This document shows, one piece after another, positions 49-16,133 of a stretch of 23,073 bases of DNA. Made by a program: the position numbers and the translations under genes. This DNA comes from a virus. The stretch lies in IMG/VR virus record IMGVR_UViG_3300023184_000542, positions 1 to 23,073 of that record; one strand, written 5' to 3'. The notes beneath the pieces were generated by a model. The model was given only the letters and a program-made list of their open reading frames with translations. It ran no database searches and was not told the origin of the DNA. The stretch's first letter is position 1. The number at the start of each line of letters is the position of its first letter.

Positions 49-123
49 TCCAGTGTAGCACAGCGGTAGTGCAGTTGACTGTTAATCAATTGGTCGTAGG
101 TTCGATCCCTGCCACTGGAGCCA
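49..123 (+). tRNA. tRNA-Asn (GUU)
   Basis: The cloverleaf closes with acceptor TCCAGTG/CACTGGA, discriminator G and encoded CCA. The anticodon loop CTGTTAA gives GUU. It is the first complete gene of the tRNA array, followed 5 nt later by tRNA-Tyr. Confidence 0.95.
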
Positions 124-128
124 ATTTT

Positions 129-215
129 GGAGATGTGTGCCGAGCGGCGAAGGCAGCTGACTGTAAATCAGTGACATCAGAAACACCGTAGGTTCGATTC
201 CTACCGTCTCCACCA
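129..215 (+). tRNA. tRNA-Tyr (GUA), class II
   Basis: Acceptor GGAGATG pairs with CGTCTCC, followed by A and encoded CCA. The loop CTGTAAA gives anticodon GUA, and the long variable arm fits a bacterial tRNA-Tyr. Confidence 0.95.
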
Positions 216-220
216 AACCT

Positions 221-295
221 GCCTGGTTAGCTCAGGGGTAGAGCAACGCCTTTACACGGCGAAGGTCCGCGGTTCGAAACCGTGACCAGGTACCA
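221..295 (+). tRNA. tRNA-Val (UAC)
   Basis: Acceptor GCCTGGT pairs with ACCAGGT, with a G-U first pair, then A and encoded CCA. The loop TTTACAC gives anticodon UAC. Confidence 0.95.
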
Positions 296-316
296 TTTTA
301 ATATTTGAAAGATTTT

Positions 317-580
317 ATGAATTATTTACCCTTAGGAAAAAAATTAATTGTCAAAGATACAGAACGCGAAGATACAACAGATAGTGGTATCTATGTAGGC
401 AAGACTTTGGCAGACCCAAGAGCAAAGACAGGAACTGTAATTGCAATTGGTCCAGATGTTAAGGATGTCAAAGTCGGCGATATTGTTTATTTGCAATGGT
501 CAAGTATTAAAACAGTTAAAGATGGCGATACATATTTAGGTGTTATTACCGAAGATGATGTACTTGCAGTCTTAGAATAA
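317..580 (+). CDS. GroES-like co-chaperonin
   Basis: An 87-aa protein with the GroES chaperonin-10 layout. An N-terminal strand (LPLGKKLIVK) is followed by a mobile-loop segment carrying S-G-I-Y-V, the equivalent of the GroEL-binding G-G-I-V-L. Next come a T-G-T-V-I-A-I-G-P strand, the V-K-V-G-D-I-V signature, and a C-terminal E-D-D-V-L-A-V-L-E closely like GroES. In T4-like phages a co-chaperonin of this type (gp31) replaces host GroES for folding the major capsid protein, so that role is likely here. I chose ATG at 317; the frame also opens at TTG 305, adding four residues. The gene lies between tRNA-Val and tRNA-Arg and ends 5 nt before the latter, so it probably shares their transcript. 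GroES homology is clear; capsid-folding use is inference. Confidence 0.9.
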   Translation: MNYLPLGKKLIVKDTEREDTTDSGIYVGKTLADPRAKTGTVIAIGPDVKDVKVGDIVYLQWSSIKTVKDGDTYLGVITEDDVLAVLE

Positions 581-585
581 AATTC

Positions 586-660
586 CTGGCGTTAGTTCAA
601 CGGATAGAACAGTAGCCTTCTAAGCTATTAATAGAGGTTCGATTCCTCTACGCCGGACCA
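586..660 (+). tRNA. tRNA-Arg (UCU)
   Basis: Acceptor CTGGCGT pairs with ACGCCGG, then A and encoded CCA. The loop CTTCTAA gives UCU, which reads AGA, a codon used heavily in the late genes of this window. Confidence 0.93.
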
Positions 661-668
661 AGTTATGT

Positions 669-742
669 TGGGGGTTAGTGTAGCGGTAACACTACAGACT
701 TTGACTCTGTCATCACTGGTTCGATCCCAGTACCCTCTGCCA
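669..742 (+). tRNA. tRNA-Gln (UUG)
   Basis: The loop CTTTGAC gives anticodon UUG. The acceptor TGGGGGT/ACCCTCT is closed except for a U1-U72 mismatch. G73 and CCA are encoded. A weak 1-72 pair is a normal tRNA-Gln trait (U1-A72 in E. coli). Confidence 0.93.
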
Positions 743-747
743 AATAA

Positions 748-764
748 CCGAGCATTTGACTCGG
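748..764 (+). other. small hairpin overlapping a -35 box
   Basis: CCGAG and CTCGG form a 5-bp stem that overlaps the TTGACT -35 element at 756-761. It has no following T-run, so it is not an intrinsic terminator. Confidence 0.35.
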
Positions 765-784
765 ATTCAAAAAGATGTTATAAT
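756..784 (+). promoter_or_regulatory. sigma70-type promoter
   Basis: TTGACT at 756-761 and TATAAT at 779-784 are separated by exactly 17 bp. It lies 20 bp upstream of the 45-aa gene at 804 and would also drive the downstream tRNAs. Confidence 0.88.
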
Positions 785-803
785 AGTGTTTTAGGAGATA
801 AAG

Positions 804-941
804 ATGAAGCACAAGATAATCGTCAAGCAACGTAACCCCTTCGTTGTTTTGACATTAAAAAGAAAAGCGGGTAGCCATCGTAAGCCATTCAAGGCAATGC
901 GAAAGGCACAAAATCAAGTACCTTTAGGGGGTATAACTTAA
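804..941 (+). CDS. small basic conserved phage protein (45 aa)
   Basis: A 45-residue, strongly basic protein behind a consensus promoter and a good ribosome site (AGGAG at 793-797, seven bases before the ATG). The core R-N-P-F-V-V followed by R-K-A-G-S-H-R-K-P-F-K-A is a pattern I recognise from short phage and proteobacterial proteins of unknown function. I know of no assigned activity; the charge suggests nucleic-acid binding (inference). The stop codon (939-941) lies inside tRNA-Lys, which starts at 927, so 15 nt are shared. Maturation of the tRNA 5' end would therefore remove the mRNA stop codon. Confidence 0.75.
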   Translation: MKHKIIVKQRNPFVVLTLKRKAGSHRKPFKAMRKAQNQVPLGGIT

Positions 942-1001
942 CGGCTAAAGTAGTAGGCTTTTAACCTATTAATCAGAGTTCGATTCTCTGTGCCCCTACC
1001 A
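927..1001 (+). tRNA. tRNA-Lys (UUU)
   Basis: The loop CTTTTAA gives UUU. The D-stem ACTT/AAGT and the acceptor GGGGGTA/TGCCCCT (with G-U pairs) close fully, then A and encoded CCA. The 5' 15 nt double as the end of the upstream 45-aa coding region. Confidence 0.93.
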
Positions 1002-1064
1002 TATAAAAGCACATCGTAAAGTATTCGATACGAAAGCTGGCCAGGCTGGTGTGCTTCTATATGG
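999..1064 (+). ncRNA. long-stem structured RNA element between tRNA-Lys and tRNA-Arg
   Basis: Bases 999-1013 pair with 1050-1064 in a 15-bp stem with a single A-C mismatch. Inside are a TCGTA/TACGA hairpin (about 1014-1033) and the palindrome CTGGCCAG. The 5' strand of the stem starts with the CCA of tRNA-Lys, so the helix would compete with or guide processing of that tRNA's 3' end. It has no coding potential. It could be a processing spacer or a small stable RNA comparable to T4 RNAs C and D (inference). Confidence 0.55.
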
Positions 1065-1071
1065 TAAATAG

Positions 1072-1148
1072 CGGTCCTTAACTCAACTGGATAGAGTGCT
1101 GGTCTTCGAAACCAGAAGTTAGGAGTTCGAATCTTCTAGGGCCGGCCA
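1072..1148 (+). tRNA. tRNA-Arg (UCG)
   Basis: Acceptor CGGTCCT pairs with AGGGCCG, then G73 and encoded CCA. The D-stem is ACTC/GAGT, and the stem CTGGT/ACCAG around loop CTTCGAA gives UCG. Confidence 0.92.
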
Positions 1149-1153
1149 GATAT

Positions 1154-1228
1154 GGAGTTGTTAGTTTAGTGGTAAAACCGCGGGTTGTGATTCCGCTATC
1201 ACGAGTTCGATTCTCGTACATCTCCCCA
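1154..1228 (+). tRNA. tRNA-His (GUG)
   Basis: The loop TTGTGAT gives GUG. An encoded G-1 (1154) can face C73, the hallmark of bacterial tRNA-His. The acceptor has one U-U mismatch at pair 4-69, and CCA is encoded. Confidence 0.92.
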
Positions 1229-1230
1229 AT

Positions 1231-1306
1231 GCCAAGATAGCTCAGTTGGTAGAGCACCGGATTGAAAATCCGGGTGTGGGCGGTTCGATCCCGTCTCTTG
1301 GTACCA
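1231..1306 (+). tRNA. tRNA-Phe (GAA)
   Basis: Acceptor GCCAAGA pairs with TCTTGGT, with A73 and encoded CCA. The loop TTGAAAA gives GAA. Confidence 0.95.
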
Positions 1307-1315
1307 TATATAATA

Positions 1316-1407
1316 GGAAGGTAATGCAGGTGGGATGGTCCGCCGACTGGCCTTGAAAACCAGGTTCTCAGAAATGGGATGGAGTTCGACTCTTCTGCCT
1401 TCCGCCA
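1316..1407 (+). tRNA. tRNA-Ser (UGA), class II
   Basis: Acceptor GGAAGGT pairs with GCCTTCC, with G73 and encoded CCA. The loop CTTGAAA gives UGA. The long variable arm is as expected for tRNA-Ser; pair 31-39 is a C-A mismatch. Confidence 0.9.
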
Positions 1408-1434
1408 TTTTTACTTTAGCTAAAGGATTATAAT

Positions 1435-1719
1435 ATGTCCCATGAACAAGATAAGTTTAAACATAGCAAGCGTTTACATGAGGATGATATACATATTAAT
1501 AGGCAAGTAAAAATTGCCAAATCCGCAGGAATGGATGTAAAAGAACCGCACAAGTTTGCGAAGCATCATGCAATGGATTGTGGCAATCCTAAGTGTATCT
1601 TATGTTCTAATCCTAGAAAAATTTATAAAGAAAAAACAATTCAAGAAAAAAGATTTGAACAAGATATGGAGAAACAAATATTGGAGATTGGGCAGGATGG
1701 TAATGCAGCAGATTGCTAA
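1435..1719 (+). CDS. conserved phage protein with a Cys pair motif (94 aa)
   Basis: A hydrophilic protein of 94 residues. Its centre reads C-G-N-P-K-C-I-L-C-S-N-P-R-K, followed by the conserved tail E-K-T-I-Q-E-K-R-F. This compact set of three cysteines plus upstream histidines (K-H-H-A-M-D-C) suggests a small metal site. I recognise the block from short phage and bacterial proteins of unknown function. The A/T-rich leader before the ATG at 1435 carries AAAGGA as a ribosome site. The last 37 nt overlap tRNA-Ser(GCU), and the TAA stop is formed by the tRNA's anticodon loop. This repeats the overlap seen for the 45-aa gene. Confidence 0.75.
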   Translation: MSHEQDKFKHSKRLHEDDIHINRQVKIAKSAGMDVKEPHKFAKHHAMDCGNPKCILCSNPRKIYKEKTIQEKRFEQDMEKQILEIGQDGNAADC

Positions 1720-1771
1720 TCTGTCATCGTAGTGATACGGTGAGTGGGTTCGACTCCCACAGTCTCCGCCA
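1683..1771 (+). tRNA. tRNA-Ser (GCU), class II
   Basis: Acceptor GGAGATT pairs with AGTCTCC, with G73 and encoded CCA. The loop TTGCTAA gives GCU, with a long variable arm. It overlaps the end of the upstream coding region. Confidence 0.94.
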
Positions 1772-1780
1772 AATTTAAAA

Positions 1781-1897
1781 GGCCCTTTACTGCAGAGTCC
1801 ACAGGCCCAACCTGCAGAGTAGTGTGAATACTTGGGACGAACGGGAACATCACTGACTAGGGTCCAATCCTATGAGGTGTCAGTACTAGGGCCGCCA
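1781..1897 (+). ncRNA. 117-nt tRNA-like RNA with GCCA 3' end
   Basis: The ends pair as an acceptor-like stem GGCCCT (1781-1786)/AGGGCC (1888-1893), followed by a G and CCA exactly as in the neighbouring tRNAs. Inside are CTGCAG (1790-1795)/CTGCAG (1812-1817) and a 7-nt-loop hairpin AGTA/TACT (1818-1832). A nested arm ACTGAC (1852-1857)/GTCAGT (1879-1884) encloses TAGG-GTCCAAT-CCTA, whose seven-base loop resembles a T-loop. Loop bases CCCAA (1807-1811) can also pair with TTGGG (1832-1836), a possible pseudoknot. It is not a canonical tRNA and has no open reading frame. It probably matures by the same RNase P/Z route as the tRNAs around it. Function unknown; T4 stable RNAs C and D are the nearest conceptual parallel. 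Confidence 0.65.
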
Positions 1898-1899
1898 AC

Positions 1900-1991
1900 A
1901 CCTCGATAGTTTAATGGTAAAACGGCGGATTTATATCCCGTAAGCAACAGATAATTGGTTCATCCGAGTTCGAATCTCGGTCGAGGTACCA
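1900..1991 (+). tRNA. tRNA with UAU anticodon, probably Ile, long variable arm
   Basis: Acceptor ACCTCGA/TCGAGGT, D-stem GTTT/AAAC and T-stem CCGAG/CTCGG all close, with A73 and encoded CCA. The loop TTTATAT gives UAU (Ile, AUA codons). The variable region is 22 nt, unusual for tRNA-Ile, and pair 31-39 is an A-C mismatch. Identity is therefore less secure than the fold. Confidence 0.75.
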
Positions 1992-1994
1992 TAC

Positions 1995-2069
1995 GGATAT
2001 GTAGCATAATGGTAGTGCACCTCCTTCATACGGAGTAAGGTGGTAGTTCGACTCTACTCATATCCACCA
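1995..2069 (+). tRNA. tRNA with CAU anticodon (Met or Ile2)
   Basis: Acceptor GGATATG pairs with CATATCC, with A73 and encoded CCA. The D-stem is GCAT/GTGC, and the loop TTCATAC gives CAU. Whether C34 is lysidinylated (Ile) or not (Met) cannot be told from sequence alone. Confidence 0.9.
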
Positions 2070-2075
2070 GTTTAT

Positions 2076-2149
2076 AGCGGGGAGGTCTAGTGACCCGAAG
2101 AGTCTCATAAGCTCTATCGAGGGTGGTGCGAATCCATCCCCCGCATCCA
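2076..2149 (+). tRNA. atypical CAU tRNA, initiator-like acceptor
   Basis: A six-pair GCGGGG/CCCCGC acceptor with unpaired A1 and A72, loop CTCATAA, and encoded CCA. The unpaired 1-72 position and the acceptor sequence resemble initiator tRNA. The three G-C pairs of an initiator anticodon stem are absent (AGAGT/GCTCT), the D-arm shrinks to GGTC-TAGT-GACC, the T-loop is TGCGAAT, and base 73 is U. It may be a divergent or degenerate tRNA. Confidence 0.65.
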
Positions 2150-2153
2150 TTAT

Positions 2154-2234
2154 GCCCCTGTAGACAAATTGGCAAAGTCGTCTCTCTCAAAAGGAGAAAT
2201 TTTAATGCGAGTTCAAATCTCGCCAGGGGCACCA
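2154..2234 (+). tRNA. tRNA-Leu (CAA)
   Basis: Acceptor GCCCCTG pairs with CAGGGGC, with A73 and encoded CCA. The stem TCTCT/GGAGA around loop CTCAAAA gives CAA. The variable region of 9 nt is short for a tRNA-Leu. The 3' part is antisense to the end of the J-domain gene. Confidence 0.88.
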
Positions 2235-2800
2235 GGCAGAGCAATTCTTTCTACAAGACCATATTCATAGTCTTTTAAAATCTCTATCACTAGATCACAA
2301 ATTTTAATACGACGAGAAAAATCTTCGTGTTCTCTATTTCGTTGTTCTATTTGTTTTTGAACTTGATCTAATAGTAGATTTTGTTTTTGGTGTTTTGCAT
2401 TTATTCTAATTACTACTTTTTGTAATTTTTCTAAATGCTTATCGCAAGTATTAATATTGGCAAACATATCTTGTCGTATTTTAGTAGCTTCTAAGTGCAT
2501 AATGCTTACTAAATTATCTTGTTCTGCTTCAAACGAAGGTACAATAGCTGCCATCATTTGAGCAATATGATCTAGTGCGGCATTTCTAATTGCAAGATTA
2601 GACTCTGCATCGCCTGACATATCGTACCCTTTTCTTCGGATAGGATCAGATAAAATTTCATACGCTTCTTTTATGCGTTTAAATTTTTCTTCATCTCCTC
2701 CTTTATCGGGATGATGTATCATCGCGAGAGATCTAAATTTTAATTTGATCTCTTCTTCGGTTGCGTCTATAGAGACTTCTAGTTCAAGATAAGGATCCAT
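2213..2800 (-). CDS. J-domain (DnaJ-like) protein with coiled-coil tail
   Basis: A 195-aa protein whose first ~65 residues are a J-domain. The L-x-L-x-x-x-A-T-x-x-E-I-K helix leads to the H30-P31-D32 catalytic tripeptide and D-K-G-G, then F-K-R-I-K-E-A-Y-E-I-L-S-D. J-domains stimulate Hsp70 (DnaK) ATPase. The rest (about 70-190) is charged and helical, probably coiled coil, with no Gly/Phe stretch or zinc fingers, so it is a specialised J-protein rather than a full DnaJ. It is the only clear minus-strand gene in the window. Its final codons and stop are read antisense through the 3' end of tRNA-Leu (22-nt overlap). It might direct host DnaK to phage substrates (inference). Confidence 0.88.
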   Translation of the reverse strand: MDPYLELEVSIDATEEEIKLKFRSLAMIHHPDKGGDEEKFKRIKEAYEILSDPIRRKGYDMSGDAESNLAIRNAALDHIAQMMAAIVPSFEAEQDNLVSIMHLEATKIRQDMFANINTCDKHLEKLQKVVIRINAKHQKQNLLLDQVQKQIEQRNREHEDFSRRIKICDLVIEILKDYEYGLVERIALPGAPGEI

Positions 2801-2845
2801 ATTTTAAGATATATAATAATATCATTTATTTATTAGGAGATAAAA

Positions 2846-3115
2846 ATGTCTGACGGCGGAAAAGGATCAAAGGCTAGGCCACTTAGTATAACACAAGAGC
2901 AATATGATAACAGATGGAATTATATTTTTCAGCGTGATAAAAGAGAATATGAAGATGCTAAAATAGAAGATGAAGCATTTTTAGCAATACAAAGTCAAAA
3001 AGATATTGATTTGACAAATAAAAAAAATAACACTGGTACAGATAAAGATGAATACTATGATGTTATAACGACAGAAGAATGCCTAATGGCAATATACAAA
3101 GATAATATCTCGTAA
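2846..3115 (+). CDS. conserved phage protein, M-S-D-G-G-K-G-S type (89 aa)
   Basis: A hydrophilic 89-aa protein starting M-S-D-G-G-K-G-S-K-A-R-P, followed by N-R-W-N-Y-I-F. I recognise this N-terminal block from many short phage proteins of unknown function. A strong ribosome site (TAGGAG, 2834-2839) precedes the ATG. Residues 35-80 are mostly charged. The stop codon (3113-3115) is made by bases 7-9 of tRNA-Trp, which begins at 3107, giving another overlap between coding sequence and tRNA. It is divergent from the J-domain gene, from which an AT-rich 45-bp gap separates it. Confidence 0.8.
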   Translation: MSDGGKGSKARPLSITQEQYDNRWNYIFQRDKREYEDAKIEDEAFLAIQSQKDIDLTNKKNNTGTDKDEYYDVITTEECLMAIYKDNIS

Positions 3116-3180
3116 GTGTTATGGTAGCACATCAGTCTCCAAAACTGAGGGCGGGGGTTCGACTCCCTCACGGGATGCCA
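3107..3180 (+). tRNA. tRNA-Trp (CCA)
   Basis: Acceptor ATCTCGT pairs with ACGGGAT, D-stem GTGT/GCAC, stem TCAGT/ACTGA with loop CTCCAAA giving CCA, then G73 and encoded CCA. The first nine bases overlap the upstream coding region. Confidence 0.94.
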
Positions 3181-3203
3181 AATAATTTTGAACAATCAAA
3201 CGG

Positions 3204-3232
3204 TTGACAAAATTTACGAAAGGTGTTATAAT
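3204..3232 (+). promoter_or_regulatory. consensus sigma70 promoter
   Basis: A perfect TTGACA (3204-3209) and TATAAT (3227-3232) with a 17-bp spacer. Transcription should start near 3240, just before tRNA-Gly, and run into the YkuK-like and Ro-like genes. Confidence 0.93.
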
Positions 3233-3249
3233 AGACACATAGGTTAAAT

Positions 3250-3323
3250 GCGGGTATGATGTAAAGGTAACCTGAAACCTTGCCAAGGTTTATTTGCGAG
3301 TTCGATTCTCGCTACCCGCTCCA
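3250..3323 (+). tRNA. tRNA-Gly (GCC)
   Basis: Acceptor GCGGGTA pairs with TACCCGC, with U73 and encoded CCA. The stem AAACC/GGTTT around loop TTGCCAA gives GCC. Confidence 0.94.
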
Positions 3324-3338
3324 GTATTGAGGAATACT

Positions 3339-3821
3339 ATGAAAAAAATCGATATGGCAGAAGTAACAGCTTACTTAGCAGCACAAAGCCCAGAGACTAA
3401 AATCTATCTAGGTGCTGATTCCGAGCGTTACAAGCGAAATGGAAAATGGTATGCAGATTATACTCTTGCAATTGTTGTCCACATCGATGGACGTCATGGT
3501 TGTAAGATTTTTGGTGAAGTACAAACCGAAGTTGATTTCGATGCAAAGGCAGGTAAACCATCTATGCGTCTAATGAACGAGGTGTACAAAGTCGCAGAAC
3601 TGTATCACAAACTTGTGGATGCGGATGTAATTGGTGACAAAGAAGTCCAAATACATCTTGACATTAATCCTCAAGAATGTTATAATAGTTCTATAGTAAT
3701 ACAGCAAGCAGTTGGCTATATCAAAGGTATGTGTAATGTAGTACCAATGGTTAAACCAAATGCATTTGCAGCAAGCTATGCCGCAGATAGACTGAAAGAG
3801 GTTATGGCAATGGCAGCATAA
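3339..3821 (+). CDS. YkuK/DUF458-type RNase H-like protein
   Basis: A 160-aa protein of the DUF458 (B. subtilis YkuK-like) family, which has an RNase H-like fold. Visible acidic residues in fold order are D27 in L-G-A-D-S-E, E81 in M-N-E-V-Y-K, D108 in H-L-D-I-N-P, and D150 in Y-A-A-D-R. The G-Y-I-K-G-M and K-P-N-A-F-A-A-S-Y blocks are typical. A four-acid set like this would support two-metal nuclease chemistry, but activity of the family is not firmly established. The frame is open upstream into tRNA-Gly; I placed the start at the ATG preceded by TGAGGAA (3328-3334). The gene is followed by the 220-nt structured RNA and the Ro-like gene, suggesting an RNA-handling module (inference). Confidence 0.85.
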   Translation: MKKIDMAEVTAYLAAQSPETKIYLGADSERYKRNGKWYADYTLAIVVHIDGRHGCKIFGEVQTEVDFDAKAGKPSMRLMNEVYKVAELYHKLVDADVIGDKEVQIHLDINPQECYNSSIVIQQAVGYIKGMCNVVPMVKPNAFAASYAADRLKEVMAMAA

Positions 3822-3828
3822 AAGTTTT

Positions 3829-4048
3829 GGGATGGGTACAGCACTCTAAAATACTAACGTACTAAGAGTTGTCACTATAGGAGGAAACACCGTAAGGTGT
3901 CAATTACGTGACTAGGCAACAAAGCCGAATTAAATAGTGACTCTGGAAAGACAGAAAAAATGATAGTAGCCTATCGGGTTTCAGTGGGTCTTACCGAAAG
4001 GAGCACTGGGGTTAGAGTAAACCAAATTAATACTAGACCGTCCATCCC
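3829..4048 (+). ncRNA. 220-nt multi-helix structured RNA upstream of the Ro-like gene
   Basis: The ends close as GGGATGG (3829-3835)/CCATCCC (4042-4048). Inside I can trace ACTCT/AGAGT (3843-3869) and GTCACTAT (3871-3878)/ATAGTGAC (3934-3941). The latter encloses ACACC-GTAA-GGTGT (3887-3900) and GGC/GCC (3915-3926). Beyond it are GATAG-TAGC-CTATC (3962-3975) and a compound arm GGTTT/AAACC (3977-4023) over CAGTG/CACTG with a CC-GAAA-GG tip. Two GNRA tetraloops (GUAA, GAAA) and an end-to-end closing stem are strong signs of a folded RNA. No open reading frame of note crosses it. It matches no RNA class I can name. Its place directly before a Ro-like RNA-binding protein gene makes a Y-RNA-like partner a reasonable hypothesis. 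Confidence 0.75.
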
Positions 4049-4057
4049 GTTGTATTT

Positions 4058-4117
4058 AGGTTAGGTTCAGCAAATAAAAAGCATTCAACTTGTAATTGAA
4101 AACGCAAAAACTAACCT
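4058..4117 (+). ncRNA. T-armless tRNA-like hairpin in the leader of the Ro-like gene
   Basis: AGGTTAG (4058-4064) pairs with CTAACCT (4111-4117), a 7-bp acceptor-like stem. An internal 5-bp stem TTCAA/TTGAA (4084-4100) carries loop CTTGTAA, which is a proper anticodon-loop shape with U33, UGU (Thr) and A37. There is no T-arm, no convincing D-stem and no CCA. It ends 20 nt before the ATG of the Ro-like gene. It may be a decayed tRNA-Thr, a tRNA-mimic bound by the Ro-like protein, or a leader control element. Confidence 0.5.
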
Positions 4118-4137
4118 GTTGTTTAAAGGAAAATATT

Positions 4138-10495: not shown

Positions 10496-11674
10496 ATGAT
10501 GAAATTCGATCTATTTTTAAAAGAATCATTACTTACTGAAGAAAAAAGTAAGGCAATTAAGCACCTTACGCATTTAGGAGGCGAGGCTCATTTTGAAAGC
10601 AGTGCCGAAACAAATGCAGATTTAAAAAGACTAGAAGATCTACATCATCATTTAAGAGGCGAAAAATCCTCAGTACAAAACATTGGAGTTAAGGCAGACG
10701 GTTCACCTTCTTTTGAGATGGGGCACGTTATAAACCCAGCAACAGGTGAAAAAGAATTTGGCGTGGCGTATAAAGGTGCCGCTAGAGGATATGCCTTTAC
10801 CCCAGAACAAGTAAAAGAAAAATTTGGACACTCTGAGGGACTATCCTCAAAGATGGCACAATTACTCGAGCACGGTAAAAAGATAATGTCTCCTATACAT
10901 GGAGTAGTGCAAGGTGATTTTATGGGCAGCAGAAAAGATGGCACCATAAAAACAGAAGGTAATAAAATTACTTCGAAAGAAAATTTAATTAAGTATGGAT
11001 ATGATAAAAATTCCGACGAAGGTAAAAAAATAGCAAAGGCTAAAATTAGTATTGCATTACATACTAGAATAGATAAAGATAAGCCAGAATATAATATAGA
11101 TCAATCTAAATTTTATGAGAATCAGGATGTTCATATGTTCAACAATAAGTTAAGCGCAAAAGGACTTAACTATTCTGAAGAAGATCAAAAAGAATTTCAG
11201 AAAAACTTTGATAAAGCAAAAGAACATCTAGGCGCAATAGGCAATCATGATAGTCTTATTAAAGGACACAGCGAACATTTACAGACATATATAAACAAAA
11301 CAGTTCGCGAAGGAAAAGGTCCTACTTCCGCAGGTTATAAAGCTCATCTAAAAGCAAGACTGCAAAAAGAAATAGATAAAGTATCTAGACCAGAAAACAA
11401 ATTAAAGAAGTCAATTGCTATGACAAATAGTTTAGAGCACGTGGATAAGAATAAAAGAGACTTTGATCATCTTTTTACTGCTCATAGACATTTAGATAAA
11501 GCAAAAAATATACTATTAAAATCGTTGGAGAATAGCGAACAAAATCAGCACCACACCATTAATGATCAGACAACTAAACCCGAGGGATTTGTTGTTGGTT
11601 ATAAGGATGGCTCAGTTTCAAAAGTTGTTAACAGAAGTAAAGAGGGATTCTCTGGTATGAATCTAAACAAATGA
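10496..11674 (+). CDS. RNA/DNA ligase-like nucleotidyltransferase with capsid-targeting leader
   Basis: A 392-aa protein. Residues 1-10 end in F-L-K-E, a candidate prohead-protease site. Behind it are motifs of covalent nucleotidyltransferases (ligases): K66-A-D-G-S as motif I with the lysine that would be adenylylated, G-V-A-Y-K-G and V-V-Q-G-D-F-M-G (around 141) near motif III, and a C-terminal E363-G-F-V-V with K376-V-V-N-R, resembling motifs IV and V. The middle (200-350) is helical and charged. T4-like phages have RNA ligases for tRNA repair, but a copy with a capsid leader would be packaged. ATG 10496 is followed by another ATG at 10499; either could start. It overlaps the next start by 4 nt. 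Catalytic activity is not proven. Confidence 0.72.
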   Translation: MMKFDLFLKESLLTEEKSKAIKHLTHLGGEAHFESSAETNADLKRLEDLHHHLRGEKSSVQNIGVKADGSPSFEMGHVINPATGEKEFGVAYKGAARGYAFTPEQVKEKFGHSEGLSSKMAQLLEHGKKIMSPIHGVVQGDFMGSRKDGTIKTEGNKITSKENLIKYGYDKNSDEGKKIAKAKISIALHTRIDKDKPEYNIDQSKFYENQDVHMFNNKLSAKGLNYSEEDQKEFQKNFDKAKEHLGAIGNHDSLIKGHSEHLQTYINKTVREGKGPTSAGYKAHLKARLQKEIDKVSRPENKLKKSIAMTNSLEHVDKNKRDFDHLFTAHRHLDKAKNILLKSLENSEQNQHHTINDQTTKPEGFVVGYKDGSVSKVVNRSKEGFSGMNLNK

Positions 11675-12105
11675 TAAAATTTAAAACATACTTACAAGAA
11701 GAAACATTATTAGATGAGTTGTTTAATATAGTAGAAGACTATATAGAAAGTTTATCTGCAGAACAGGGCATTGACTCAGAAGTACTTTGGGAACATTACG
11801 AAGATTTAGATGATGATGCTCTGTTTGGTTTAGCCGAGGATTGGCAAGACTCCAAGTATAAGAACCCAACGGGCGGCTTAACTAAGTCTGGGGTAATGGC
11901 TTATAGAAGAGAACATCCCGGAAGTAAACTACAAACTGCTGTTACAACTAAACCTTCTAAATTAAAAAAGGGAAGTAAAGCAGCAAATCGTCGTAAATCT
12001 TTTTGTGCTCGAATGGGCGGAATGAAGAAGAGATTAACATCTGCTAAGACCGCACATGACCCAGATTCAAGAATTAATAAAGCGCTACGCAAGTGGAATT
12101 GCTAA
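11671..12105 (+). CDS. DUF6321-like basic protein with capsid-targeting leader
   Basis: A 144-aa protein in three parts. A leader with Y-L-Q-E (residues 7-10) is followed by an acidic stretch (15-60, E-D-L-D-D-D). The strongly basic C-terminal domain begins G-G-L-T-K-S-G-V and contains K-P-S-K-L-K-K-G-S-K-A-A, R-R-K-S-F-C-A-R-M-G-G and the end L-R-K-W-N-C. I recognise this C-terminal module from phage proteins (DUF6321-like). Function unknown; the charge and leader suggest a DNA-associated internal head protein. Its ATG overlaps the previous stop (ATGA), so translation is coupled. Confidence 0.8.
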   Translation: MIKFKTYLQEETLLDELFNIVEDYIESLSAEQGIDSEVLWEHYEDLDDDALFGLAEDWQDSKYKNPTGGLTKSGVMAYRREHPGSKLQTAVTTKPSKLKKGSKAANRRKSFCARMGGMKKRLTSAKTAHDPDSRINKALRKWNC

Positions 12106-12188
12106 TGCTCGTATTAACAGGGTACATAGCAAGTATAACATCGAGTCAATAGGAAGTCAAGACATTTTGGATAACTTTGGAGTAGTGT

Positions 12189-12299
12189 ATGAGTTGGTTC
12201 AGGCATAAACCTAGAAAAAATCCGCCGGTTCCTAAGAGACCTTACCCGCAACCTCCAGCACCTTCGCAAATTAACCAAACAATCAAACTGTATAAATAA
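12189..12299 (+). CDS. small proline-rich phage protein (36 aa)
   Basis: A 36-residue protein beginning M-S-W-F-R-H-K-P-R-K and rich in Pro (P-P-V-P-K-R-P-Y-P-Q-P-P). I recognise similar short M-S-W-F/L-R proline-rich proteins from T4-like phages; function unknown. A TTGGAG ribosome site precedes the ATG. Its last codons and stop (12291-12299) are made from the TATAAATA late promoter of the next gene. Confidence 0.6.
   Translation: MSWFRHKPRKNPPVPKRPYPQPPAPSQINQTIKLYK
12291..12298 (+). promoter_or_regulatory. T4-type late promoter
   Basis: An exact TATAAATA box 27 bp before the ATG of the nucleotidylyltransferase gene. It is embedded in the last codons of the 36-aa gene. Confidence 0.82.
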
Positions 12300-12324
12300 T
12301 AGGTTGCCTAACCAATATATTCAA

Positions 12325-14013
12325 ATGGACTTTAGAAAATATTTAGAAGAAGCTGTAGAAAAGACCGCCGTGATGGCTTTCGGTCGTTTTAACCCACCTA
12401 CGGTTGGTCATGAAAAGCTTATACAAAAGGTTAGAGATGAAGCCGACGAAAGAAATGGCACAGGGCACGTATTTGCTTCCCATTCAGAATTAACTAGAAA
12501 AGATCCATTACCGCAAGATGCAAAAATTGGTTATTTAAATCAAATTGCACATGGCACACAAATACACGGATCATCCAAAAAAGAACCCACATTTTTACAC
12601 GCAGCGGCAAAATTATATGCTGCGGGTCACAAACACCTAGTTATGATTGCTGGCTCTGATAGAGTACAGGAATATCAAGAAAAGCTTGATAAGTATAATG
12701 ACGGTAAAGTATATCCTCACGGCAAGTTCAAATTTAAATCTATAAAAGTAGTTTCTGCAGGGCAAAGAGATCCTGATGCAGAAGGCGTAGAAGGAATTTC
12801 TGGTACAAAAATGCGAGAATATGCTAGAGGCAATAAGCACAAAAAATTTGAAAGCGGATTGCCAGAAGGATTAAAAGATAATGCGAAGGCAATTGGCGAT
12901 CATATCAGAGCAATTAAAGATGATGTGAAAGAAGGTTTAGATATAACTAATAAAGTGGATGTCGTGAGAGAAGCATATTTAAATAATTTAATATATAAAA
13001 TTGGTGATGTTGTAGAAGCAAAAAATGGGGACAAAGGTCCTATAGTTTTTAGAGGATCTACATATGTTACTATACAATTGTCTGAAGGCAAAACCATCAA
13101 GCATTGGTTAAAAAACATACAAGAAGCAACTAAAGTTTGGCCTGAGATAACAGTTAAACCTGCTCGCAGAATTTTAGAAAAACAAATCCCTGCATTGTTT
13201 ATGTCAAAGAAACAATTAGAGGAAAGATCAAATGATAGTATGGAAGTTGACTACCAAGGTTACCATACAGAAAATTTACATACGTGCCCAGGCGCATCTG
13301 AAAACTTAAAAGATCTAATTAAAAAACAAGATTTAAATCCTAAGTTTATTTTGCAAGCAATTCAAGCAACGGATAAATATTTAGGTGTTGAAAAAGAAGC
13401 AAAGAAAATTGGATTTGCAGATGAAAAATTAATACATCAGTTTAATATGTATTTTTCTATTGCACATGATACGCTCAATATGTTAGGATACTCAGATGCA
13501 AGTTTAATGTATATGAGTAAGCATTTAAGGGATATGGCGTTATTAAGTATACACAAAGATTCATCTTTCTCGAATGAAACAATTAGTACAATACCAACAT
13601 TTGGATCGGGTGATGCTGCGGAAAGTTATATACCTCAAGTTAAGGAAAAAATCACAATGGATAAACTAAGAAAAAGAATTGCAGAAGTTAGAAACTCTGT
13701 AAAAGAAAATAGTCAGCCACCTATGACAAATGCTGATACCTATCCTTCAGATCCTCCTACTGCACACAGAGATGTAAATCTAAAACCCGATAAAGAAGTT
13801 TATCATGGTATAGATAAAACAATAGAAGATCAAGGGTATCCCGGCAAACCTCCAGGTTTAGTTTCGTTTAAATCTTTTCTTTCAACGCCTGAGACTCAAA
13901 AGATAGAAAAAGAAAAAGGTGAACATATGCAAGATGTTCATAGAGCAAAGGCAGAACTTTCTACACATAGTTCTACATATAAATTAATGGCAAAGGCCAG
14001 CCATTATGAATGA
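12325..14013 (+). CDS. HIGH-type nucleotidylyltransferase with capsid-targeting leader
   Basis: A 562-aa protein. Leader residues 1-9 end in Y-L-E-E. Then comes a cytidylyl/adenylyltransferase-like domain: M-A-F-G-R-F-N-P-P-T-V-G-H29 (the T/H-x-G-H motif), V-M-I-A-G-S-D-R (106-113) and I158-S-G-T-K-M-R164, the counterpart of the I-S-S-T-x-x-R motif of NMN and related adenylyltransferases. Similar domains occur in cyanophages. Residues 190-280 hold a separate small beta-rich segment, and 300-430 a helical domain I do not recognise (H-Q-F-N-M-Y-F-S-I-A-H). The frame opens at TTG 12304, but that lies at the expected transcription start of the late promoter, so ATG 12325 is preferred. The gene ends 8 nt inside the Dps-like gene. 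Substrate unknown. Confidence 0.8.
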   Translation: MDFRKYLEEAVEKTAVMAFGRFNPPTVGHEKLIQKVRDEADERNGTGHVFASHSELTRKDPLPQDAKIGYLNQIAHGTQIHGSSKKEPTFLHAAAKLYAAGHKHLVMIAGSDRVQEYQEKLDKYNDGKVYPHGKFKFKSIKVVSAGQRDPDAEGVEGISGTKMREYARGNKHKKFESGLPEGLKDNAKAIGDHIRAIKDDVKEGLDITNKVDVVREAYLNNLIYKIGDVVEAKNGDKGPIVFRGSTYVTIQLSEGKTIKHWLKNIQEATKVWPEITVKPARRILEKQIPALFMSKKQLEERSNDSMEVDYQGYHTENLHTCPGASENLKDLIKKQDLNPKFILQAIQATDKYLGVEKEAKKIGFADEKLIHQFNMYFSIAHDTLNMLGYSDASLMYMSKHLRDMALLSIHKDSSFSNETISTIPTFGSGDAAESYIPQVKEKITMDKLRKRIAEVRNSVKENSQPPMTNADTYPSDPPTAHRDVNLKPDKEVYHGIDKTIEDQGYPGKPPGLVSFKSFLSTPETQKIEKEKGEHMQDVHRAKAELSTHSSTYKLMAKASHYE

Positions 14014-14443
14014 AGAGTTAATACGAGCACTTAAAAGATTACTTGCAGATACATTTGTAATGTATTACAAGGCTCATGCCTCACACTGGAATGTGGAAGG
14101 GCCTAATTTTCCACAGTATCATGATTTCTTAAATGATCTATATAACGAATTATTTTCTGCTATAGATAGTATTGCAGAAACAATTAGACAGTTAGGTGGT
14201 TATGCTCCTACATCATTAAAAGAATTAGTTTCTGAAACTATGGTTTCGGAAGATGAAGAAGTTGTTTCCGCAATATCTATGATGAATAGACTATTAGACG
14301 CAAATAATCTGGTATTAGCATCGTTACTGATGGCATATAGAGAAGCAGAATCCGCAACAGAAATTGGCGTATCTAATTTTATACAGGATAGAGTTATGGC
14401 ACATCAAAAACATGGTTGGATGTTAACATCTATTACAAAATGA
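14006..14443 (+). CDS. Dps-like ferritin (DNA protection)
   Basis: A 145-aa protein with the Dps signature A-H-A-S-H27-W28-N-V-E-G-P-N-F and Y-H39-D-F, then D54-S-I-A-E58. The spacing (12, 15 and 4 residues) equals that of the inter-subunit ferroxidase ligands of Dps (H51, H63, D78, E82 in E. coli). L-G-G-Y-A-P and the final helix with A-H-Q-K-H-G-W-M-L also fit. Dps dodecamers oxidise and store iron and can bind DNA. Here the basic N-terminal DNA-binding tail is missing. It has no capsid leader, although it sits between leader-bearing proteins and overlaps both neighbours (8 and 4 nt), so it is made with them in late infection. It might protect packaged or replicating DNA (inference). Confidence 0.92.
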   Translation: MNEELIRALKRLLADTFVMYYKAHASHWNVEGPNFPQYHDFLNDLYNELFSAIDSIAETIRQLGGYAPTSLKELVSETMVSEDEEVVSAISMMNRLLDANNLVLASLLMAYREAESATEIGVSNFIQDRVMAHQKHGWMLTSITK

Positions 14444-14880
14444 TATCCTTTAAAGAATTCATTCAAGAAGACGTTACAGATGAAGAAATTGATGCTTTAA
14501 TTGAAAGCATTGAGTGGGAAGATATCATTGATATGTATGATGAGAATGAATTAGTAGTTGAAGCGATTAGTGCTCAAGAAAGAGCAAAAAAAGGTATTAG
14601 ATTAAAATCTAGAAAAATACTCATGGCATTGGCCAGACGAGTTAAATTGAAAAGAGCGGCATCTAAAGAAATAATTCAAAGAAGAACTAACACCGATGCT
14701 AGAAAAATAATGATGAAAAAATTACTAAAGGGCAGAAAGAAAAAACAATTATCTGCTCCAGAAAAAAATGCTTTAGAAGCAAGAGCATCTAAAATGATGA
14801 GCAAAAATTTTGTGGCAAGACTTATACCAAAAGTAAGACAATTAGATAGAGATAGAATTGCTAGTAGGAACAGTAAATGA
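14440..14880 (+). CDS. basic internal head-type protein with capsid-targeting leader
   Basis: A 146-aa protein. The leader (1-10) ends F-I-Q-E, very like T4 internal proteins (F-I-A-E). An acidic segment follows (E-W-E-D-I-I-D-M-Y-D-E-N-E, about 25-37), then a strongly basic helical domain (K/R-rich, 50-146). I recognise the acidic-then-basic layout from T4-like aquatic phages, where these proteins are hypothetical. Start ATG 14440 overlaps the Dps stop (ATGA) and the end overlaps the next ATG, so it is coupled on both sides. Likely role: DNA-binding head protein, cleaved during maturation (inference). Confidence 0.78.
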   Translation: MISFKEFIQEDVTDEEIDALIESIEWEDIIDMYDENELVVEAISAQERAKKGIRLKSRKILMALARRVKLKRAASKEIIQRRTNTDARKIMMKKLLKGRKKKQLSAPEKNALEARASKMMSKNFVARLIPKVRQLDRDRIASRNSK

Positions 14881-16133
14881 AATCATATTTTAAACTAAAA
14901 GAAGCATACGGTTCATATAAAGGATATCAAAGTTCTTCGGGTGCTAGTCACGGCCATGCTTACGGTGGCGGTGGTTTAGGTAGACGCCATAGAGAAGACG
15001 ATGAATATCATGTGCCGGATCCTGAACAACATAAAATTAATTTTAGTGTATCAAAAGAAGGTGAAGAAAAACACCAACGTACAGTTACTGTAACTACACA
15101 TAAGGGATATAATCACGCAGTTGATTCTGCAAGATCTCACCTTACTAATAAAGGTTACACGATACACGAAGAAATTGATATGAATGAAGGTACCTTCAAG
15201 TATCATATGGACAAGGCAATTGCCTCTGCAGAAAAGGGTGATGATAAACGAAAAGCATATCATTTAGAAAATGCTCGTACAGCAAAACTTGCTATGAAAA
15301 CTGCAGACTATGGCAAGAATAAAGAATTGCTAGACAAGCATAAACAAATGTCTGAAGAAAAAGAAAACACTGAGTATAATTACGAAGGTGATATGACCCG
15401 AGGACAAATGAGAAGTATTATTGCTAATGCTCAAAGAGTCCATGATATGTTAAAGGATGATGATAACCTACCAGAATGGGTTCAAAGTAAGGTTACTTTG
15501 GCAGAGGATTATATTAGTACAGTTGCTAATTATTTAGTAAGCGAAGTTAACGAAGCCAAAAAAATGAAGGGCAAGGATCCTTGCTGGGACGATTATAAAA
15601 TGCTTGGGACAAAAAATAAGAATGGCAAACAAGTACCGAATTGTGTTCCTGAATCTGTTGAAATCAAAGAAGATGCTTATATGGAAGCAGAACAACATTT
15701 GAAACAAGCAGAAGCTGCAGAAAAAGAAGGCAATACAGGTTTGCATCATAGACATATGACAAAGTTTCATGAAAGAATGTCTGAATGGCATTCTGATAGA
15801 GGAAGACACGGTTCTGCTGAAAAACATGAAACACTTGCAGACGACCATCACGAAAAGGCTGTTAAATTAGGCGAAGCGACAGATGCTAGAATAAGATTAC
15901 AAAGAGCATTTGAACGCGAAAAAGAAAGACGTGAAAGATCAGAACGCCTTGGTAGAGAATTATTGAATCCTACAAAAAAGCCAACCCCTGCAACTCCCAC
16001 ACAAGGTGTTAAGGAAGCAGTAGATAATGCAGTGGATGAGGGTATTGCTCGTTTAATATCTAAATCAATTAAAAGAGTTACTGCAACAAAACCTACTCCT
16101 CAGGAAAAAGCCGATATTCGTCTTAATAAATAA
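14877..16133 (+). CDS. modular packaged protein with capsid-targeting leader (418 aa)
   Basis: A His/Glu/Lys-rich protein of several modules. The leader Y-F-K-L-K-E (4-9) is followed by a Gly/Ser/His-rich stretch. Then comes a segment with M-T-R-G-Q-M, D-D-D-N-L-P-E-W-V-Q-S-K-V-T-L-A-E-D-Y-I (around 170-215), and M-K-G-K-D-P-C-W-D-D-Y near 228 with P-N-C-V-P after it. I recognise both modules from T4-like phage proteins of unknown function; the two cysteines flank a possible disulfide or metal site. The C-terminal part is highly charged. No catalytic motif is visible. The leader and operon position indicate a packaged protein. Confidence 0.72.
   Translation: MKSYFKLKEAYGSYKGYQSSSGASHGHAYGGGGLGRRHREDDEYHVPDPEQHKINFSVSKEGEEKHQRTVTVTTHKGYNHAVDSARSHLTNKGYTIHEEIDMNEGTFKYHMDKAIASAEKGDDKRKAYHLENARTAKLAMKTADYGKNKELLDKHKQMSEEKENTEYNYEGDMTRGQMRSIIANAQRVHDMLKDDDNLPEWVQSKVTLAEDYISTVANYLVSEVNEAKKMKGKDPCWDDYKMLGTKNKNGKQVPNCVPESVEIKEDAYMEAEQHLKQAEAAEKEGNTGLHHRHMTKFHERMSEWHSDRGRHGSAEKHETLADDHHEKAVKLGEATDARIRLQRAFEREKERRERSERLGRELLNPTKKPTPATPTQGVKEAVDNAVDEGIARLISKSIKRVTATKPTPQEKADIRLNK

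Follow-up and report, generated by a model that had tools for sequence, protein, structure and literature searches.

A virus-specific Dps clade associated with head and terminase operons of T4-like viruses

Introduction

Why would a T4-like virus keep a miniferritin gene among genes for head proteins, and does the product itself enter the head? A Dps gene on a 23,073-nt fragment (the window) of the IMG/VR virus IMGVR_UViG_3300023184_000542, whose relatives are T4-like (cyanophages and Methylophilales phages), raises this question. Dps is already known in phages and has its own PHROG; in the cultured phages examined, the gene stands among replication genes, whereas the clade described here lies mostly in head/packaging operons. 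A search of the open-access literature turned up no report of Dps within head operons of T4-like viruses, and, as far as that literature shows, the virus-specific Dps clade tied to head/terminase operons is new, as is its leader/polyprotein branch. If packaged, Dps would be a mechanism protecting DNA inside the virion from iron and peroxide, with a bearing on virus survival in sunlit water and on the iron carried by virus particles.

Results

The first-pass annotation had placed a Dps-like ferritin at 14006-14443, and we found that the plus-strand ORF has exactly these coordinates and encodes a leaderless protein of 145 residues, identified as a Dps from its sequence, modelled structure and fold. 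Pfam Ferritin PF00210 matches it with E 9.5e-25, phrog_3636 ('DNA binding protein') matches with E 5.4e-33, and phmmer against PDB Dps chains gave PA0962 (8ff9) as the top match (E 6e-21). The AF2 (AlphaFold) model has a pLDDT of 97.8, and by Foldseek its closest solved fold is the Pseudomonas aeruginosa PA0962 Dps (8ff9, TM 0.96), with many Dps chains at TM 0.91-0.96. The predicted helices (3-29, 35-62, 71-75, 89-116 and 120-144) form a four-helix bundle with a short BC-loop helix and without a fifth long helix, as in Dps. Among the cellular Dps equivalogs of NCBIfam, the protein falls below the curated cut-offs of NF006975 (51.3/114 bits), NF041388 (63.2/170 bits) and NF052461 (42.4/300 bits).

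Four scans of viral contigs gave hundreds of Dps relatives, and we analysed 168 distinct proteins, identical ones counted once, some of whose loci overlap on the same contigs. The iron ligands of the window Dps are H27, H39, D54 and E58, spaced 12/15/4, with W28 adjoining H27. They correspond at identical spacing to H37, H49, D64 and E68 of PA0962, four residues that hold a di-iron site for which H2O2 is the oxidant (PMC10002758). All four are invariant in the viral relatives (168/168), which bears out the earlier claim of a complete ferroxidase set at canonical spacing and rules out loss of these residues in relatives. PA0962 is also like the window protein in having a Trp by its first His and no basic tails; it differs in being a cellular stress protein, only 32% identical, encoded outside a phage operon.

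The two proteins differ further at the position four residues past the second His, which serves as a fifth ligand position in some Dps, as at Listeria D47. The acidic residue that many cellular Dps have there is absent from the window Dps (N43), and the viral relatives carry G in 117, N in 18 and E or D in 11 of the 168; the bacterial set for this position was chosen partly by a phage-derived motif, which makes the viral/bacterial contrast approximate. PA0962 retains the acidic residue, but not as a ligand, and works with only four ligands. Because this residue is lost, the window site may bind its second iron weakly.

The Dps gene lies in a seven-gene run on the plus strand (9220-16133) in which genes overlap or are separated by short gaps; the widest gap, of about 220 nt, precedes 12325. 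All six genes other than Dps begin with a leader of about 10 residues, in which an L/I-x-E motif has its last residue at position 9-12; Dps is the sole gene of the run without one. In order, the run comprises the first leader gene of the block (9220-10494, leader MILNTFKNFLSE/D, the slash marking the leader end), a DUF6267 protein with relatives in cyanophages and Methylophilales phages (10496-11674, MMKFDLFLKE/S), a DUF6321 protein (11671-12105, MIKFKTYLQE/E), a cytidylyltransferase-like protein (12325-14013, phrog_3041/395, CTP_transf_like, MDFRKYLEE/A), Dps, its downstream neighbour (14440-14880, MISFKEFIQE/D), for which no family match was found in Pfam or PHROGs, and a last leader gene with weak matches to function-unknown phage families (14877-16133, MKSYFKLKE/A). 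For the two neighbours of Dps, ATG 12325 is the probable start rather than the program-called TTG 12304, and ATG 14440 is likelier than the program-called TTG 14416.

The gp21 protease of T4 cleaves after L/I-x-E, and about 10 N-terminal residues are enough for T4 head targeting (PMC9026906, PMC7697877). The leaders of the Dps neighbours match both this capsid-targeting leader and the cleavage rule, which supports a head-gene context from sequence. They are also like the T4 internal proteins IPI, IPII, IPIII and Alt, which carry a leader of about 10 residues ending in L/I-x-E (PMC9026906); unlike these, the window Dps is leaderless, and where Dps leaders do occur, in a sister clade alone, they are of another sequence type. 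Across the viral Dps overall, the L/I-x-E motif occurs in 8 of 168, not above the background of the looser motif (about 6% of bacterial-locus ORFs).

As the first-pass annotation had stated, Dps overlaps leader-bearing head genes on both sides: its 5' end overlaps the cytidylyltransferase-like gene by 8 nt (stop codon of that gene at 14011-14013) and its 3' end overlaps the downstream leader gene by 4 nt (ATGA). The frames of Dps and the upstream gene differ and the two share the ATGAATGA overlap. Hence, Dps is not fused to the upstream gene in the window.

A TATAAATA box, the T4 late promoter sequence, lies on the plus strand at 12291-12298, 27 nt ahead of the gene that opens the transcription unit of Dps, and a second lies at 9185-9192 (+), 28 nt ahead of 9220, where the leader genes begin. 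Their number in the window is not above chance (2 vs 3.3 expected); only where they lie, together with what relatives show, is telling. In the closest relatives (L001 and L003), the orthologous gene follows the box at a distance of about 30 nt, and the box lies upstream of the cytidylyltransferase gene in 13 of 59 relatives (0.8 expected). Over 3.2 Mb of viral loci, no other 5A3T octamer is as strand-biased as TATAAATA (258 forward and 16 reverse; median ratio 1.4). The Dps gene thus sits in an operon with a late-type promoter motif (12291) and leader-bearing genes that overlap it on both sides.

A strong intrinsic terminator (9136-9159, +; a GC-rich stem-loop, then a T run) divides the earlier units from this late block. 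Before it, a rubrerythrin-like diiron protein without rubredoxin cysteines (7160-7609, +) belongs to a transcription unit other than that of Dps, in which a perfect sigma-70 promoter (TTGACA-17-TATAAT, 6793-6821, +) precedes tRNA-Leu, ORF 6919 and rubrerythrin. This promoter and another at 8106-8134, both assigned to the rubrerythrin unit, match the sigma-70 consensus at 12/12 positions, with a spacer of 17 nt in each. An early/late split of the two proteins, as had been suggested, is plausible because rubrerythrin has a sigma-70 promoter, Dps has the late boxes and the terminator lies between. The accompanying idea that they form an iron/peroxide defence set is weak: rubrerythrin occurs in only 3 of 21 Dps-bearing records, which rules out a conserved set.

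We found that the relatives mostly keep Dps in head or terminase blocks, a recurrence that the earlier annotation had left to be checked. The gene is in cytidylyltransferase blocks in 69 of the 168 cases and in other head-internal blocks in 8; both terminase genes, gp16 and gp17, are within 3.5 kb in 51, and one of them in 25 more. The remaining 15 are unclassified, several among leader-type or structural genes and some not. PHROGs confirm the identities of gp15, gp16, gp17 and gp18 near the viral Dps. Where both are near, the Dps gene typically sits directly between them; at many loci of T4-like phages (L029-L080 and L093-L139) it is inserted between gp16 (small terminase) and gp17 (large terminase) with gaps of a few bases. 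Of 21 Dps-bearing records, 12 encode the T4-type prohead protease (PF03420); the record that bears a fusion (below) is one of them, as is each of the eight IMG/VR records above 125 kb.

The viral Dps cluster together in the tree (support 98/100), apart from 30 bacterial sequences, with a bootstrap that is not fully settled. Three other sequences fall inside this group: that of Synechococcus phage S-SRM01, which has a long branch, and those of two bacterial-MAG contigs, possibly viral. The S-SRM01 Dps (QPX48251), from a freshwater cyanophage (Kyanoviridae), is 32% identical to the window protein and has a porin and hypothetical genes as neighbours, with no recognised head block. One contig of 132 kb in a Bacteroidetes MAG (L218), whose Dps is inside the viral clade, may be a phage genome caught in the bin and so offer a lead to a host. 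The hundreds of viral relatives and the separate viral clade rule out chance or host contamination as the source of the gene. Across deep divergence, the clade has kept its ferroxidase residues and, mostly, its head/packaging context, and one branch carries a targeting-like leader.

In that branch, Dps proteins with 26-35 extra N-terminal residues are encoded at L022/L084, L085, L086, L143/L145 and L089/L090. Their start codons mostly follow ribosome-binding-like sequences and mostly lie 0-4 nt past the preceding gene, and close pairs differ mostly at third codon positions. Given these ribosome-binding-like sequences and third-position differences, the extensions are probably real coding sequence. 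A 37-residue, Arg/Ser-rich N-terminal extension at another locus (L328) was judged an overlap artefact; a Met lies just before the usual Dps start.

At L087, L088 and L141, from three metagenomes (L140 and L088 are one contig), a longer protein of 412 or 750 residues ends in a C-terminal Dps domain. The fusions share their N-terminal leader with neighbouring polyproteins: a profile of four non-Dps leaders recovered two fusions at E about 1e-7. With the same profile, the leader of the stand-alone Dps of L022 gave E 0.04 and 13.4 bits (best shuffle, 11.3 bits), which is suggestive of homology to the non-Dps leaders. The fused proteins contain repeated EEVEQIDE-type / L-x-E sites, with an L-x-E directly before the Dps domain. 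Leader-bearing and fused Dps form one clade (support 100/99), for which these sequence features make a good circumstantial case for Dps as a head protein; motif and analogy suggest that Dps there enters the prohead and is cut free by its protease. Two of the Dps polyproteins (L087:6605-7843 and L088:8222-10474) also have an EF-hand-like module, DANxNGKIDAHDFKLLR, common to many other phage polyproteins (L175-L217).

Discussion

We consider it probable that the window encodes a late-made, peroxide-consuming miniferritin of the virus lineage, expressed from a T4-like head-protein operon and probably head-associated. In this explanation the predicted fold, the ligands, the operon, the promoter motif and the conservation are computed, and catalysis, timing and packaging are what we infer. 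The subunits would assemble into a 12-subunit cage and hold Fe2+ at inter-subunit sites, H27 and H39 coming from one subunit and D54 and E58 from the other. The bound Fe2+ would be oxidised with H2O2 and the ferric iron kept inside the cage, so that Fenton reactants would be removed while new genomes are made and packed, the DNA itself not being coated. Translation of Dps would be coupled to the neighbouring head genes through the stop/start overlaps, and with this apparent coupling Dps would be made alongside the material that fills the prohead.

Of the description of the locus as a late packaged-protein operon, the late, leader-rich operon stands; packaging of Dps itself does not follow, since operon membership alone does not make Dps packaged when it is without the leader of its neighbours. 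Other phages bear on this point. Dps is likewise phage-encoded in phrog_3636 and in Proteus phage Privateer, Cronobacter phage vB_CsaP_009 and Aeromonas phage LAh_8, at only about 28% identity to the window protein. In Privateer and LAh_8 the gene is among replication, nucleotide and anaerobic RNR genes, in contrast to the head genes of the window; because the gene stands among replication and nucleotide genes in these two, Dps need not be a head protein.

The chance is a little under even that Dps acts in the cytoplasm alone, its operon position setting timing and dose so that the cell would be guarded against late-infection iron release and peroxide. The leaderless window protein argues for this, as do the many relatives encoded between terminase genes, given that terminase proteins do not end up inside the head, but the leader and polyprotein clade is left unexplained.

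That clade speaks instead for Dps packed as an internal protein of the virion, to clear iron and peroxide from packaged DNA outside the cell or to enter the next host with the DNA, to which we give somewhat less than an even chance. The gene sits in an internal-protein operon, in the sister clade Dps either carries a leader or is joined to leader-bearing polyproteins with EEVEQIDE / L-x-E sites, the prohead protease is present in 12 of the 21 Dps-bearing records, and the Privateer Dps was found with purified virions (PMC7881722). Because the Privateer protein, encoded outside a head operon, was found there, where contamination is possible, a leader is perhaps not needed for packaging; by this analogy, the leaderless Dps of the window may enter the head without one. 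Against this reading stands that missing leader, and the assembled Dps cage, about 9 nm across, is too wide for passage through the tail tube.

A broader form of packaging is a tentative proposal: T4-like freshwater phages would carry an old virus-specific Dps clade as cargo, enclosed in the capsid alongside the genome. In some lineages this would happen through a leader on Dps itself or through a polyprotein from which the prohead protease releases the Dps domain, giving virions with a cage that removes iron and peroxide. There is an analogy in encapsulin-encapsulated ferritin-like proteins (PMC5012862, PMC11202242), where a ferroxidase is put into a capsid-like shell by a targeting peptide; they are of a different ferritin subfamily and in a cellular compartment, and the likeness is one of analogy only.

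It is improbable that Dps acts on DNA, condensing viral DNA or nicking it as PA0962 does in vitro. PA0962, the closest structural relative, cleaves DNA although it has no basic tails, and phrog_3636 carries the label 'DNA binding protein', a label that probably stems from Dps nomenclature. The window Dps has a pI of 4.89 and a net charge of -9, and it has no basic N- or C-terminal tail of the E. coli type (which is not universal), starting MNEELIRALKRLL directly in helix 1; the viral relatives have a median pI of 5.2 and a net charge of -8. Given these values, DNA coating is unlikely, and the suggestion that the protein shields viral DNA, read as DNA binding, finds no support in so acidic a protein. 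Finally, delivery of iron by Dps loaded on or in the particle to help entry through iron uptake systems (the 'Ferrojan horse'), proposed for a ferritin-like gene that shares an operon with a tail-completion gene in Vi01-like phages, in one of which a ferritin-like protein was detected by mass spectrometry, is very improbable here, as TonB and FeoB mutants were infected normally in that case (PMC10892097) and the Dps block is head-internal, not tail.

Outside the late block, the window carries 18 tRNA genes interspersed with small genes (49-7820), a Cpn10 (GroES-like) gene between tRNAs (305-580) and a DUF7788/DUF2828 protein (4096-5562). A DnaJ-domain protein is encoded on the minus strand (2213-2800), the rest of the fragment being mostly plus-strand, and the protein encoded at 21426-23033 has collagen-like repeats and matches Peptidase_G2 (IMC autoproteolytic) at its C-terminus.
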